DNA of 64,000 bases. Source: Alteromonas naphthalenivorans (lineage in GTDB: Bacteria > Pseudomonadota > Gammaproteobacteria > Enterobacterales > Alteromonadaceae). The stretch covers positions 2,728,001 to 2,792,000 of the forward strand of contig NC_015554.1 of the NCBI RefSeq assembly GCF_000213655.1, read 5' to 3'. Below, piece after piece: positions 22,201 to 28,484 of this stretch (the first letter of the stretch is position 1; each line of letters starts with the position of its first letter). The notes under the pieces were generated by a model, which saw only the letters and a program-made list of their open reading frames with translations, had not been told where the DNA came from and ran no database searches. The position numbers and the translations under genes are program-made.

Positions 22201-22620
22201 TTAGTGCGGAGCTTGGTTGTTAAGCTGATTAGACAGCGTACTGCTGCCTGCTATCAATGCCTTGGCCAATAGTTTGTGGGTAAGTACCGATAACAGCTCT
22301 GTTTCTGCTTCACTTCGCTCTCCATCAACGCCAGTGATTGCCATGGCAACCTCTAGGGTTTTTTCCGCGTTAAAAGATAGGTCATCTTTTAACGCGCGCA
22401 TGAACTCAAGTTCATCGCCAGTATCAATAGCTTGTCTGGTCTGGTAAATCGTATCGTTTAAAAAAGCTTCCCGGCAGATTGGACTTTGCCAATCTAGTTC
22501 TTCAACCATGGAATTGAGATAATCTTGTTCAGATAACGTCACCATACCGTCTACTTGATATAACAATACTGACAATTTGATAAGTGCTTGATTAAAGGTT
22601 TGTTGCTGTGAAAGTTGCAT
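22201..22620 (-). CDS. TerB-like small helical protein
   Basis: 139 aa, predicted all-helical and soluble. Two repeated helix pairs carry acidic loops typical of TerB/DjlA-N domains: VLLYQVDGMVTLSEQDYL near residue 17 and AMAITGVDGERSEAE near residue 92. TerB domains are membrane- or metal-associated and occur in tellurite/phage-stress gene neighbourhoods, but single-domain copies are widespread and undefined. The ATG has AGAGGA seven bases upstream. It lies 274 bp downstream of the SMC operon on the same strand; co-transcription is possible but unproved. Confidence 0.6.
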   Translation of the reverse strand: MQLSQQQTFNQALIKLSVLLYQVDGMVTLSEQDYLNSMVEELDWQSPICREAFLNDTIYQTRQAIDTGDELEFMRALKDDLSFNAEKTLEVAMAITGVDGERSEAETELLSVLTHKLLAKALIAGSSTLSNQLNNQAPH

Positions 22621-22894
22621 AGTTTCATCCTCTTCGTGCCATACGCATTGGCACCACTACTTGCCCGCATCCTGCTAGGCAGTTTATTGTTTTTCACGAG
22701 AGTATTAATGTTGCTCCTGCTCGTTGACAGCTATATCACGCCACCATGAACAATTAAGTTCAATGTGTGAATTAAATGTAAAATAACTGTTGCTATTATA
22801 GTCTTTTCTTTGCGAGATCCAAGTAAACTTGCGTATAAGAAGCCCGAAATAAGTGTAAAGACAAATGTAAAAACCAATATAATAAATAGAGCCG

Positions 22895-24115
22895 CTAGCG
22901 CAGCCCTAGGGTGATATCGTTAATGTAGAAGTTGCCTGTAAACGTTTTGTCATTTTCACCATGAGGATCGAGGGCAAAAAATTGCTTTTCTTGATCGGCA
23001 AGCGCTTGATAGCCTCCAATCACTTGATACATCCATACCTCACGATCAAACGCTAACGCTTTTTCTTCATAATAGGTTAACGCTGTTTTCGGTTGGCCCG
23101 AATCAATAACCTCACAGAAGAAGTCTTCTATGGCTAACTGTAATTCATCCTTTTCAAGAGATACCGTAGATTGTTCGGTTACATCGATATCTTGCTGTGG
23201 TTCAGCATCATCATGTTTAGTAGCACGTTGATGAATATGCGTAAGCGAGGACACAATCTCTTGGTAATCGTTTTCGTGCTCAACATTATTCACATCTGGC
23301 GCAGCGGCACTCATCACGCTGCTTGATTGATTAAACAGTACTGGCACTTGCGTCAAGTTAGTGTAGTTACCCGGCGCAAAGTCAGGGTGTTGCTCCATGT
23401 GTAGCAAGTAGCCCTTAAGCAAGCGAGTACGACCTTGGAATTCTCTGAATCGCCCGAGTAAATCTATCAAACGCGCTTGCACCACCGAGAGTTCTTGCGC
23501 AGCTTTTGAAAAACGCTGCTGCAAAGACACCACCAGCAAATGGCGAAGTTCGCGGTTTGAACCCGCTATTTCACTTAATTCATCGAAGCGGAAACATTCC
23601 AGCTGTGATAGCAAGTCAGTCACCTGCCCTTGCGCTAGTTCATTTTCACGAATTTTCGCATCTACCGACGACACATAACCAAACTCATTAGTAATGCGCC
23701 CGAACAACACACGTACGCTGTTCGATAAAGACTCTGACAGTTGATACACATGCTCGGTTAAATCGCTCATGTGCGCAGCGGATTCGTTGTATTTATTGTA
23801 ATGCAGGGCTTCTTTATAATGCTCTGCTAAGGTTTTTAAACTCGCGAGCGACGCACCGATATTGGCATTAATGGTGCGGTTTCTTTCATCTTGTAAGCTA
23901 CCTTCTAGTAACGTACGAACTGCACTTTTAAGTCGTAATTCACTTTGCGATTCAGGGCGCCACAGCACACCAAGCTGCACCAATTGCTCTAATACCTTAG
24001 GGCTGTGGTTTTGCTCATCAACCGTGCCGTTTATATAAACCTGCATGATAAGGTCGCTGTGCTTACCCAATGCATTTAGTAAGCGAGCACCTGTTTGAAT
24101 AAGCGCTTGGCTCAT
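22895..24115 (-). CDS. Kleisin-like partner of the SMC ATPase (MukF/MksF/JetA-like)
   Basis: 406 aa, third gene of the SMC operon, its start overlapping the previous stop by 4 bp. The N-terminal ~100 residues look like a winged-helix unit (SPKVLEQLVQLGVLW, then RLKSAVRTLLEG). Long helices follow (about 100-240), a Ser/Ala/Asp-rich linker (about 260-320), then a short C-terminal domain. That order (winged helix, helical bundle, flexible linker, small C-terminal domain) is what MukF/MksF kleisins have. The assignment rests mostly on operon context and architecture; I did not recognise a signature residue. It would link the two heads of the SMC dimer. Confidence 0.6.
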   Translation of the reverse strand: MSQALIQTGARLLNALGKHSDLIMQVYINGTVDEQNHSPKVLEQLVQLGVLWRPESQSELRLKSAVRTLLEGSLQDERNRTINANIGASLASLKTLAEHYKEALHYNKYNESAAHMSDLTEHVYQLSESLSNSVRVLFGRITNEFGYVSSVDAKIRENELAQGQVTDLLSQLECFRFDELSEIAGSNRELRHLLVVSLQQRFSKAAQELSVVQARLIDLLGRFREFQGRTRLLKGYLLHMEQHPDFAPGNYTNLTQVPVLFNQSSSVMSAAAPDVNNVEHENDYQEIVSSLTHIHQRATKHDDAEPQQDIDVTEQSTVSLEKDELQLAIEDFFCEVIDSGQPKTALTYYEEKALAFDREVWMYQVIGGYQALADQEKQFFALDPHGENDKTFTGNFYINDITLGLR

Positions 24116-24747
24116 AACAAACTACCCTGGGTAATAGCAGCATCAGCTTGCTCAGATAAACTTAACGCTTCTGTTTCATCAATAAAACGCAGCATTTCAT
24201 ACAAGTGCTCTACTTTACCGGTGGCAAGGTAAATCTGCTTTTCTGGGTTTGGCTTGGTTAAGTAACCCATTTCGGTTAAGCGTTTAAATACCTGCTTTAA
24301 CTGGCCATCTAAATTCACGCTGGTAGAACCAAACATGCGGTAACGAGAAATTTTCTCTAGTTGCTCGGCATACGCAGGGGTATCTTCAATAGTAGTTTGC
24401 AGTTCGTTTAAGCGAATAGCGTTGCCCATAGTCACCGGCATATCAGACTCATTGGCTTGTTGTACTAACAACAACCATTCCACCAGCGGCACTAAGTTCG
24501 ACGCAGTATCCTGAAACTGTTGGGTTAGAATTTTGCGCTCTGCCTCACCAATGGTTAAGTAACTGGCAAAAAAAACATCGCCTTCAGCTGTGCTTGAAAG
24601 TGTGCGGTTTAGCAATGCTAAATGAGGCTCTAATTGCTGAGCTTTCTCACGGTTTTTCAAAAAGCGCCATGCTTCTTCGTCAGTAACCTGACAAATAAAA
24701 GTCCCTTGCAATAGTGCGCTTAACACGCGGCCTTGTTCCGTCATCAT
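24112..24747 (-). CDS. MukE/MksE/JetB-like partner of the SMC ATPase
   Basis: 211 aa, second gene, overlapping both neighbours by 4 bp (ATGA), a sign of coupled translation and a fixed complex. The C-terminal half has a winged-helix pattern of KITE proteins: LDGQLKQVFKRLTEMGYL, then a beta-hairpin NPEKQIYLATGKVEHLYE. Size fits MksE/JetB (about 200 aa). The upstream ATG has a second ATG one codon later. Function by analogy: it binds the kleisin and modulates ATPase activity and DNA loading. Recognition is by size, fold pattern and position, not by a unique motif. Confidence 0.6.
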   Translation of the reverse strand: MMTEQGRVLSALLQGTFICQVTDEEAWRFLKNREKAQQLEPHLALLNRTLSSTAEGDVFFASYLTIGEAERKILTQQFQDTASNLVPLVEWLLLVQQANESDMPVTMGNAIRLNELQTTIEDTPAYAEQLEKISRYRMFGSTSVNLDGQLKQVFKRLTEMGYLTKPNPEKQIYLATGKVEHLYEMLRFIDETEALSLSEQADAAITQGSLL

Positions 24748-27700
24748 GATAATGTCTCCTGGCTAGCGGCATTCCCTTTATCTTGTGCTTTTTTAGCCTG
24801 TAGGCGAGCAGCAATACCACTGGTTCTCGGCTGAACTACCTGCAACTGGCGGGTGACTTTGTCAATAAGGTAGCGATTCTCAAACAAAGTCAGTACTTCC
24901 GATTCAGGGTTCGGGAATGCGCCTACAACACTAATATTGTTGTTCTGACAGGCATCGAAAATTTTCTTCACGTTGCTTTGATGCAGTGTACCCAACTCAT
25001 CAATGGGCCAGTGTACGGTTGCTTCTGCATCGCCTCGCAATAAACGGGTAAAGGCCAGTAAGAACTTACATAAAATAAGGTAAGCCATACCATGACTAGA
25101 CGATTCATTTAACTGGCGATCGGTGCGAATAACCAAGTCGCTCTTGCCTTCACGTAAATGAAGTTCGATATCAAGCAATTTACTGATGCCGCCAGTAAGT
25201 GCAGCGCGCCCTAAAATGTCTAGCACACGACGCATACTTAGCCCGTACTCTTCATCAGGCAAGGTATTTGCGCCCTCTTCCATCCAGTGCTCGTACAGCT
25301 TTCTAAACTGCTCTAGTTCTGGCCAAAATTCTAGCTCGCTAATGCGAGATCGAATTTTCACAGCTGAATCAGACACGCCATCTAGGAACAACTCACCGTC
25401 GACTTCTTGGGTAATTCGGCGGCTTTGCGACACAATGCGCTTATCTATATCGGCAAGTACAAAGTAGTACTGAGACAAGTCGGCACCGAATATTCTGCCC
25501 TGCTCACGTAGGCCTTGCAGTTTCTGAGGTACTATCACGTTAAGCAGCTGAGATAAGTGCGATACCATACGGCGATGGTCGAAGCTCTTTACTCCATGGG
25601 CGTTAATGGTGGCGCATTCTTCGCGAGCCCGTTCCCAGGTATCAGAAAGCCCAGTTCCAGCTTGCGCTGCAATTAGCTGATCGAATCTTTCTACATAAGC
25701 ACGAATATCGCTATAAAGGGTGTCTCGTTCTTGCAAATGCCCTTGTACTTCAGAAATACGCTGGTTCACACTGACATCGTCATGCTTAATTTCAGTAAAC
25801 TCTTTTGCAGCTTGCAGGGTAAGCTTACTGAGTGATTTGCTTAACGAACGAACTTGTTCTAATTGATCTGTTGCAGTTTTCAGCCTAGTTTCAAGTGAAG
25901 CCTGCATCTCAAGTAGTTGTTCACGCGTCGCTTTATATTCACTTTGCTTTTGAGCCAAACCGCGCTCAGATTCCCCTAACGATTTCCGCGCTTTTGCCAG
26001 TTCGTCTTGCCATACCACTTTTTGTTTAGTGAATATGGTAGTGTACCAACGCTCATAATCGGCCACTTTATGGCGGTGGGTTTCGGTGCGGTTTATATCT
26101 TCTTTCAGCTTATTAATTTGCTTCTTAAGCTGACCTATTTCGTCTATGTCTACACCGCGATTATTCAGCTCATTTTCAAGCCACTTTTGCATATCTTCAC
26201 GGTCGCGAGCGGCATTCGCTTTTGCCTGCTGCATGTCTTTATCAATTTGAGAAATACGCCCTGTGCTATCGGCAATTAGCTGTTGCCAATGGAAGCTATG
26301 TTCTGTTTCCGACTCTCGCTGCTGATCTTTTATTTCGTCACGGCTAAGTTCATATTGGGCTTTGGCTTGTTTTTGGGCTTGAAGATTAGCTTCAAGCTTT
26401 GTTTTCGCCTTTTGCTTGCGTGCGGAAAGCGCCTGCTGATATTCACTTAACAGGCTATCACGGTCTTGTTGAGCGCGCTTACGGCTAGCTTCAGCACTTT
26501 TAACCGCATTGTCTTTTTGCGTCATCGACAATTCAGCATTGCGAACATCTTCATTGGCTTTAGCTAAGCGCGTTTCGCATTCATTCTGCGCAGCAAGGGA
26601 TGCCGCTTGACGAGTTTCAGCTAACTGAAGCTGTTGCTTCAAGGCTTGTTCAGTTTGCGCGTATTCAGGCGTTTCAAGCTCTGAGAGGGCTAAGTTGATG
26701 CCCATCAGCGAAGTGCTCGTTTCGCCGGTGTCTGATTTAGCGTCTTCGGCAGCTTTAGTCACGCTGGGGCTTAAGTCGTTCCGGTCTAACAATTCAGGGC
26801 GAAGTACTTTACCTAGCGATAACTCCCAATCATCAACATTGGCACGTAAGAACTCTAGCAATGAGCCCTCACCCGGGTACAACAAGCCATTGATTTTTGA
26901 AACTGCACTTTCTTCTTTTTGAAAGGCAACGCGCGCTTTATCAAGCGCATTTGAAGCATCTTGCCTAAACTGCACCGCTTTACTGTGGGCTTGCTGAGTT
27001 TGTCGGTAAGCCGCTCGAGCTGCATCTTCGTTAACTGACGCTTCTTTAGTAGCGGCATCAAGCAAATCTAATTGCGACTGCTCAAATTCGTTGTAACCCG
27101 CGTTAGATAGCGAGGCCTTTAGTTCAGCTTCAGCTACTTTAAGCTCACCAGAGGCGGTTTGAAAATTGGCTTGTAGGGTGCTGAGCTGGCCTGCGTAATC
27201 ATCGCGAATGCGGGCAATGGCTTCATGTTCTTGTTGGGTTTGCTCTGCTTTGGTTTCCGCTGCCTCTTGCCTAGCCGCTGATAGCGACTCTAACGAGAGT
27301 GACAACTTATCGCCTAGTTCAGCCAATCGTTTGTTATAAGCTGATTCAATATCTTGGTGCTTTTCGGTAAGCAATAGATAGCGGCTGTCGGCCAGTTCGC
27401 GGGCGTTTTGCCACTGCGCTAGATTGGCTACATCTTCTTTTAGTTTATCGATATTCTGGTCTTGCCATTTATCGAATTCACGCTCAACGGTATCGAGTTC
27501 ACTGGTGTATTTTTCAACATCAGCACGGGCAGACGAAATAACTTGATTAAGATGATCCCGCGTATCGTGCCACTGACTATCAGTTTGTTTACGCTGGAAG
27601 GTATTCTCATCTAATTCGTTTTTAGTGGTATCAACGCGAGTAGATAAGTGTACCTTATCAAGCTCAAAGCTATGCTTTAAGTTGGCTAACAGTTGCTCAA

Positions 27701-28484
27701 TGCTGCTTAACGCCATATCGGCTTGTTCAAGTTTGCTGAACTCAGGGCGAATATTGTCGAACTGTTTAATTAACTGGCACTCTTTAATCCAGTCATCAAC
27801 ACGATTACGGCTTAAGCCTGATGTAGGCGGTGTTACCCCATCTTCTTCCAAAATAGCGGCAATCATGGCTTTGATGGTTTCCATCTTGCCTTCTTTTGAA
27901 TGTACTGCTTTTGCAAGCTTTTCAATATGACGCATATGCTTGCTGGGCTCGCACAGGCTGAATATTTTGGCGTAACCTAATAGTTCTCGACCGTTACCGC
28001 TTTGGTTTAATACACCATGATCGTTTTGTACAATCGCGCGGAAATCTTTGGTGTTCAGCAAACTGGTTACCATCACGTTATTGCGTTTCATTGCGCGAGC
28101 AAGTTCCGCACTGCTTACGCTAACGTGTTTACCACTTTTTTGCTTAATTAAGTAGTCGTCAATATCGAACGGTTTTCCTACTAAGCGATAGTTAACGCCC
28201 GTGCCATTAGAGCTTAAAACCGCTTGGCATATATCACCGTCGGCGCGAGCATACTCATAAATAATAAAGCTAGATAAACGAGGTAAGTACCAACGTTCAA
28301 AACTGTCACGGGTGGCTGGTACTACACGACTAGGATATTCGCCGTAAAAAACTGGAATGAGCCGCTGCAAGGTAGTTTTACCCGATGCATTTGTACCACA
28401 AATGTTGGTATGCCCATCAAGCTTCAATTCTACTACACCCGGTAAATGGGTATCGATGAGAACAATACGTTTTAAGCCTGCCAT
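24744..28484 (-). CDS. SMC-like chromosome/DNA-organising ATPase (MksB/MukB/JetC-like, DUF3584 type)
   Basis: 1246 aa. Walker A GTNASGKTT at residues 30-38 sits on an SMC-type N-terminal head; YLP at 66-68 together with GKT are the two motifs I recall for the DUF3584 family. Long coiled coils (about 260-530 and 620-960) flank a central hinge near 540-610 that includes LEFLRANVDDWELSLGKVL. The C-terminal head has a degenerate signature, SSSHGMAYLILCKF (about 1128), and Walker B HWPIDELGTL (about 1155). A Shine-Dalgarno AGGAT lies six bases from the ATG. It is the first gene of a three-gene operon, unlike the kleisin-first order of mukFEB and jetABCD. Expected to bind and extrude DNA; whether it serves chromosome segregation or defence is open. 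Confidence 0.82.
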   Translation of the reverse strand: MAGLKRIVLIDTHLPGVVELKLDGHTNICGTNASGKTTLQRLIPVFYGEYPSRVVPATRDSFERWYLPRLSSFIIYEYARADGDICQAVLSSNGTGVNYRLVGKPFDIDDYLIKQKSGKHVSVSSAELARAMKRNNVMVTSLLNTKDFRAIVQNDHGVLNQSGNGRELLGYAKIFSLCEPSKHMRHIEKLAKAVHSKEGKMETIKAMIAAILEEDGVTPPTSGLSRNRVDDWIKECQLIKQFDNIRPEFSKLEQADMALSSIEQLLANLKHSFELDKVHLSTRVDTTKNELDENTFQRKQTDSQWHDTRDHLNQVISSARADVEKYTSELDTVEREFDKWQDQNIDKLKEDVANLAQWQNARELADSRYLLLTEKHQDIESAYNKRLAELGDKLSLSLESLSAARQEAAETKAEQTQQEHEAIARIRDDYAGQLSTLQANFQTASGELKVAEAELKASLSNAGYNEFEQSQLDLLDAATKEASVNEDAARAAYRQTQQAHSKAVQFRQDASNALDKARVAFQKEESAVSKINGLLYPGEGSLLEFLRANVDDWELSLGKVLRPELLDRNDLSPSVTKAAEDAKSDTGETSTSLMGINLALSELETPEYAQTEQALKQQLQLAETRQAASLAAQNECETRLAKANEDVRNAELSMTQKDNAVKSAEASRKRAQQDRDSLLSEYQQALSARKQKAKTKLEANLQAQKQAKAQYELSRDEIKDQQRESETEHSFHWQQLIADSTGRISQIDKDMQQAKANAARDREDMQKWLENELNNRGVDIDEIGQLKKQINKLKEDINRTETHRHKVADYERWYTTIFTKQKVVWQDELAKARKSLGESERGLAQKQSEYKATREQLLEMQASLETRLKTATDQLEQVRSLSKSLSKLTLQAAKEFTEIKHDDVSVNQRISEVQGHLQERDTLYSDIRAYVERFDQLIAAQAGTGLSDTWERAREECATINAHGVKSFDHRRMVSHLSQLLNVIVPQKLQGLREQGRIFGADLSQYYFVLADIDKRIVSQSRRITQEVDGELFLDGVSDSAVKIRSRISELEFWPELEQFRKLYEHWMEEGANTLPDEEYGLSMRRVLDILGRAALTGGISKLLDIELHLREGKSDLVIRTDRQLNESSSHGMAYLILCKFLLAFTRLLRGDAEATVHWPIDELGTLHQSNVKKIFDACQNNNISVVGAFPNPESEVLTLFENRYLIDKVTRQLQVVQPRTSGIAARLQAKKAQDKGNAASQETLS

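Follow-up and report, generated by a model that had tools for sequence, protein, structure and literature searches.

The window (the whole 64,000-nucleotide stretch of DNA analysed here, part of genome G000) contains an operon of SMC-type ATPase, KITE and kleisin-like genes, each sharing 4 bp with the next, as an earlier sequence-only reading had claimed (Table 1). The ATPase was covered over its full length by the DUF3584 model (1035 bits). Its Walker A (GTNASGKT, residues 30-37), YLP (66-68) and Walker B (WPIDE, 1159-1163) motifs were confirmed, and in the alignment of family ATPases residues K36, S1130, D1162 and E1163 were present in 78 of 78 proteins, with Y66, L67 and P68 in 77 of 78. 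The general SMC architecture is shared with SMC-ScpAB, but the canonical SMC of this genome is encoded separately (G000:C1:1614826-1618260; TIGR02168, 1011 bits), and the ATPase of the operon scored only 13.2 bits against the same SMC_prok_B model, below its cut-off of 567. SMC exceeded this cut-off in 114 of the 118 genomes of the taxonomic family, including that of the window. The MukB domain (PF04310) gave no match in the window genome, and none of the 118 family genomes exceeded its cut-off.

Table 1. Features of the operon and its 3' neighbourhood (positions within the window).
Feature	Position	Strand	Description
SMC/MukB-like ATPase, first operon gene	24744..28484	-	1246 aa, PF12128 (DUF3584)
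KITE subunit	24112..24747	-	211 aa, PF21980 MksE; overlaps ATPase gene by 4 bp
Probable kleisin	22895..24115	-	406 aa; MukF-like by predicted fold
Terminator-like hairpin	22887..22908	-	spans kleisin stop codon
Kleisin-TerB gap	22621..22894	-	DUF7281 nuclease slot in G762, G779 and G801; empty in window
TerB-like neighbour	22201..22620	-	139 aa, syntenic in genus

The family search suggested in the sequence-only reading placed the ATPase and, narrowly, the KITE protein, but the kleisin passed no family cut-off. The KITE protein reached 30.6 bits with the MksE model (cut-off 27); this match is marginal, since a genome-wide search with the same model failed to list G000. Searches of the PDB by sequence profile retrieved just coiled-coil and generic ABC matches for the ATPase and nothing informative for the kleisin or the KITE protein. 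Among three reference sets, the ATPase profile matched the Mks-like set (n=2) best, with a probability of 97.5 over residues 10-273, and this is the sole match of the profile-profile comparisons that is convincing. The same approach revealed no detectable sequence similarity between the kleisin and Mks kleisins. In the structural model of the 406-aa protein, the N-terminal and middle portions were best matched by MukF, with a modest margin, and the C-terminal end displayed a winged-helix-like HHH-EE pattern, judged from secondary structure alone; residues 251-281 and 291-321 were modelled with low confidence. The protein is thus a probable MukF-like kleisin. Many Alteromonadaceae records name its close homologues 'phosphoenolpyruvate carboxylase', a label that seems to be a misannotation passed from record to record.

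Two further features flank the operon. A 110-aa ORF lies upstream (window:28739-29071) and matches no family over the cut-off; among the genus loci read, its relatives (136 aa) are confined to G807 and G797. The terminator-like hairpin at the kleisin stop is shared by the window, G807, G797 and G065, and hairpins of this kind are no more numerous in the region than chance would give. We rejected the terminator as a general mark of a new operon end, with 7 of 69 nuclease-free and 2 of 28 nuclease-bearing loci carrying one.

For the analysis of gene order we fetched 80 loci, mostly about 19 kb long, comprising 79 operon loci and one operon-free control (G042). They were taken from the 59 family genomes with an ATPase over the cut-off, from 14 order-level genomes picked from 87 kleisin-bearing genomes outside the family, and from 6 of the 7 class-level genomes over the cut-off outside the family, the seventh match being a 119-aa fragment. 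The ATPase gene preceded the kleisin gene on the same strand in all 76 loci in which both were called, with the KITE gene in between in 74. Our yardstick was a set of 20 loci matched by MksE or JetD, to which the labels Muk, Mks and Wadjet were assigned here from domain matches and size rather than from named records. A size-and-strand rule resolved 12 of these loci and left 8; in all 12 the order was kleisin-KITE-ATPase, which agrees with the claim that the ATPase-first order is unlike that of MukBEF, Mks and Wadjet. By size, one reference locus (L209) fits the reverse order too, yet an MksE-matching gene precedes its ATPase. The reversed order is therefore real and marks this lineage.

The operon proved to be a constant component of the host genus. 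The ATPase was present in 58 of 58 genus genomes, uninterrupted in 57 and split in one (G774), as compared with 59 of the 118 genomes of the wider family and 10 of 370 genomes at the class level in which it was over the cut-off, 3 of the latter 10 belonging to this family. All 19 core loci fetched with flanks carry ffh upstream and the TerB-like gene downstream. Given this synteny and the genus-wide ATPase, the earlier view of the operon as part of a segment inserted into otherwise syntenic core genes was not supported, and neither was a defence island; most core genus loci have variable small genes separating ffh from the ATPase, and these may have been the source of that impression.

The nearest gene on the same strand is indeed TerB-like, by a narrow match (24.8 bits versus a cut-off of 24.4). 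It lies 3' of the kleisin gene, on the same strand, in all 20 core genus loci (the 19 flanked ones and the short G801 locus), and also follows it in 6 loci from other genera of the family; the spacing was 12-460 nt in 4 own-genus and these 6 other loci. A functional link between the TerB-like gene and the operon is possible from this arrangement. There is no support for the TerB-like protein as a replacement effector, because in G762, G779 and G801 it coexists with a nuclease, which is encoded between the kleisin and TerB-like genes; its distance of 12-460 nt is also unfavourable.

The window genome contains no match to JetD_C or to the DUF7281 nuclease profile, and to this extent the described lack of a nuclease was borne out. 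For the family as a whole it does not hold: 27 of the 79 operon loci encode a DUF7281 TOPRIM protein (mostly 274-310 aa) of the MksG/JetD/Topo VI-A type 3' of the kleisin. A JetD-like gene thus stands in the same operon in relatives, a finding that the sequence-only reading had named as one that would refute it. Outside the taxonomic family, the nuclease was present in 17 of the 20 loci read. JetD_C was over the cut-off in 10 of 118 family genomes (above 180 bits in 4), and in three of these 10 (G028, G076 and G081) the match lies beside the ATPase-first operon. In Foldseek, the nuclease model was matched at the top by Topo VI-A, with MksG and JetD absent from the best 50 rows; a second structural comparison matched it to MksG (8b7f) and JetD (7til), and its sequence profile gave a weak MksG match in the PDB (E 0.16).

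Within the host genus, the DUF7281 profile matched 4 of 58 genomes, and the nuclease stands beside the core copy in 3 of 58 (G762, G779 and G801). G805 carries, besides a nuclease-free core copy, a divergent second copy of four genes including the nuclease (L250, on the 16-kb contig C112); this nuclease clusters with the one from a Marinobacter plasmid, with modest support.

With the ATPase as tblastn query, matches came from 31 plasmid records (of 72,556) and a single phage record (of 50,697). We read the phage locus and six of the plasmid loci, and confirmed the four-gene sets among them with the family profiles. The complete four-gene operon was found on five of the six plasmids (from Marinobacter, Acinetobacter, V. 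campbellii, Rhodoferax and V. vulnificus); on the V. campbellii plasmid the annotation splits both the ATPase and the kleisin into two CDSs each. The 209-kb cyanophage Dfl-JY45 (a Dolichospermum phage) encodes ATPase, KITE, kleisin and nuclease in this order (L220:6971-13326), and all four are annotated as hypothetical proteins. The sixth plasmid, from Raoultella (L223), retains just a 5' fragment of the ATPase gene, followed by an IS630-like transposase gene; a match of equal extent and identity was listed for 12 further plasmid records, 13 in all. Among viral contigs, there were 3 pattern matches and the kleisin was confirmed in none, and among the matches listed for genome contigs one locus, of an Idiomarina MAG, was confirmed. 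The accessible text of earlier reports labels an archaeal plasmid ATPase as DUF3584 (PMC9674854) and records a weak DUF3584 match in a phage (PMC5735904).

The operon resembles several known SMC systems in some features and differs from each in others. With MksBEF it shares a MukB-like ATPase and, narrowly, an MksE-type KITE protein, and its third subunit is a probable kleisin; the nuclease of relatives has the MksG fold; it differs in its order, since mksFEBG is the order in Corynebacterium glutamicum and Pseudomonas according to the available part of PMC10123090, in its ATPase, which is longer than the 917-943 aa of reference loci labelled Mks by size, in its kleisin sequence, and in the DUF7281 membership and length of the relatives' nuclease. 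The SMC core combined with a Topo VI-A-like TOPRIM nuclease in relatives, together with the JetD structural match and weak JetC and JetD profile matches in PADLOC, recalls Wadjet (JetABCD), but the order is reversed and the window genome lacks the nuclease. In PADLOC, the ATPase gave partial JetC1 matches (9e-5 or weaker) and a slightly better one to Lamassu LmuB; the JetA, JetB and JetC profiles gave no full-length match, and none at all for the KITE protein or the kleisin. As in MukBEF, the operon is nuclease-free and its kleisin model is closest to MukF; unlike MukBEF, it has no PF04310 domain and a reversed order, and its ATPase falls about 260 aa short of the 1508-aa, MukB-sized protein of reference locus L199.

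No paper on DUF7281, on phage Dfl-JY45 or on MksB and MukB with Alteromonas was found in the literature searched, whose scope left out most subscription papers. In the accessible text of papers retrieved for Wadjet with Alteromonas, this genus is named for Argonaute only, and the combination of an ATPase-first order, DUF3584 with DUF7281, a mobile four-gene form and a genus-core three-gene form is absent from what could be seen of that literature. The parts are of known kinds, and subfamilies of this gene order may be described in subscription literature beyond the search.

The operon trees point to repeated changes of nuclease state. A 78-row operon tree required at least 10 changes, 8 of them forced by starred branches. 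The genus was sampled more densely for a tree of 88 rows, from which 8 long-branch or distant rows and 2 rows of the host genus were omitted; it likewise required 10 changes, or 22 losses if regain is forbidden. We infer the direction of most of these changes. Loss is favoured by the presence of the nuclease in most outside-family loci and by the G060 copy, in which only N- and C-terminal pieces remain and the middle is gone. It is also favoured by segment absence between close relatives: within genus g48, G048 lacks the nuclease-sized segment of G081 between long aligning flanks, and so does G107, where the distal flank is short, and a similar presence/absence was observed between G090 and both G059 and G117. 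The placement of G762, G779 and G801 speaks against a story of pure loss. Their operons fall outside the genus clade (that of G801 by the kleisin only) despite syntenic flanks, so that operon replacement is possible in these genomes; the nucleases of the three form a group with the G090 nuclease (support 100/99).

In one informative close pair (the window and G797; most other genus pairs are dS-saturated or too close), dN/dS was 0.019 for the ATPase, 0.015 for the KITE gene, 0.015 for the kleisin, 0.030 for the TerB-like gene and 0.019 for ffh, i.e. in this pair the constraint on the operon genes matches that on ffh. Across eight pairs taken from other genera, values ranged from 0 to 0.086, with nuclease-free and nuclease-bearing pairs overlapping; the highest belonged to a kleisin from a pair that lacks the nuclease. 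Where the nuclease is absent, selection shows no clear sign of having been relaxed.

We consider it somewhat better than an even bet (probability about 0.6) that the operon belongs to a Wadjet/Mks-like lineage in which the nuclease has turned over repeatedly and that here it encodes a nuclease-free core second condensin beside SMC. The subunits, as identified from sequence or predicted fold, are those of a MukBEF-like complex of a coiled-coil ABC ATPase, a kleisin and a KITE protein in an ATPase-first lineage, many members of which add the TOPRIM nuclease. The nuclease-bearing form would most likely act like Wadjet, extruding small circular DNA until cutting is triggered. In the Alteromonas-like genus, the slot after the kleisin is nearly always nuclease-free and the three-gene motor appears to have been retained as a constrained core. 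The complex of the window would most likely serve as a second condensin that loops and holds DNA but leaves it uncut, contributing to the organisation or segregation of the chromosome; the DNA-organising role proposed for it earlier is plausible. A precedent is MksBEF of P. aeruginosa, a second condensin acting beside SMC as stated in the accessible text of PMC7485682. In C. glutamicum the nuclease-containing MksBEFG acts on plasmids, according to the available text of PMC10123090 and PMC7083940. A nuclease-free SMC complex retained for a core cellular task is the most economical account.

It is less probable, although worth serious consideration, that the complex remains a defence system, one that keeps plasmids in check by compacting or silencing them or that brings in a nuclease encoded at another locus. 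The nuclease-bearing relatives on plasmids and a phage and the four-gene second copy in G805 are compatible with this, as is C. glutamicum, in which MksB acts on plasmids but leaves chromosome folding unaffected, as far as the available text of PMC7083940 goes. The genus-wide, syntenic and constrained state of the operon (dN/dS about 0.02 in the one close pair) argues against it, since defence genes of this kind are patchy, as JetD_C is in the family; the window genome, moreover, has no nuclease match of either type.

An improbable reading is that the three-gene form is ancestral and that an existing condensin operon acquired the nuclease on several occasions. One 38-row clade of the operon tree does contain a single nuclease carrier, and forbidding regain raises the count from 10 to 22, although such counts cannot orient changes. 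The prevalence of the nuclease outside the family, on plasmids and in the phage, a nuclease tree broadly parallel to the operon groups and the truncated gene in G060 all oppose it. Neutral decay of a relict operon after nuclease loss is very improbable: the split ATPase gene of G774 would fit it, but the catalytic residues are invariant, the other 57 genes are uninterrupted and dN/dS against G797 is ffh-like.

The analysis ties together DUF3584 and DUF7281, Pfam families of unknown function, as one operon that occurs on chromosomes, on plasmids and in a cyanophage and that PADLOC profiles match weakly. Tentatively, and with somewhat less than even confidence, we suggest that a nuclease-armed anti-plasmid SMC system has several times become a nuclease-free housekeeping condensin, which in this genus is a core chromosome-maintenance complex. 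A transition from defence to condensin has so far only been proposed, for MukBEF and MksBEF, as speculation in the available part of a review (PMC10586767). If the suggestion is true, the family would provide a natural series of the states before, during (the truncated nuclease) and after such a transition. The idea is directly testable, because at one and the same chromosomal slot some close relatives have the nuclease and others lack it.
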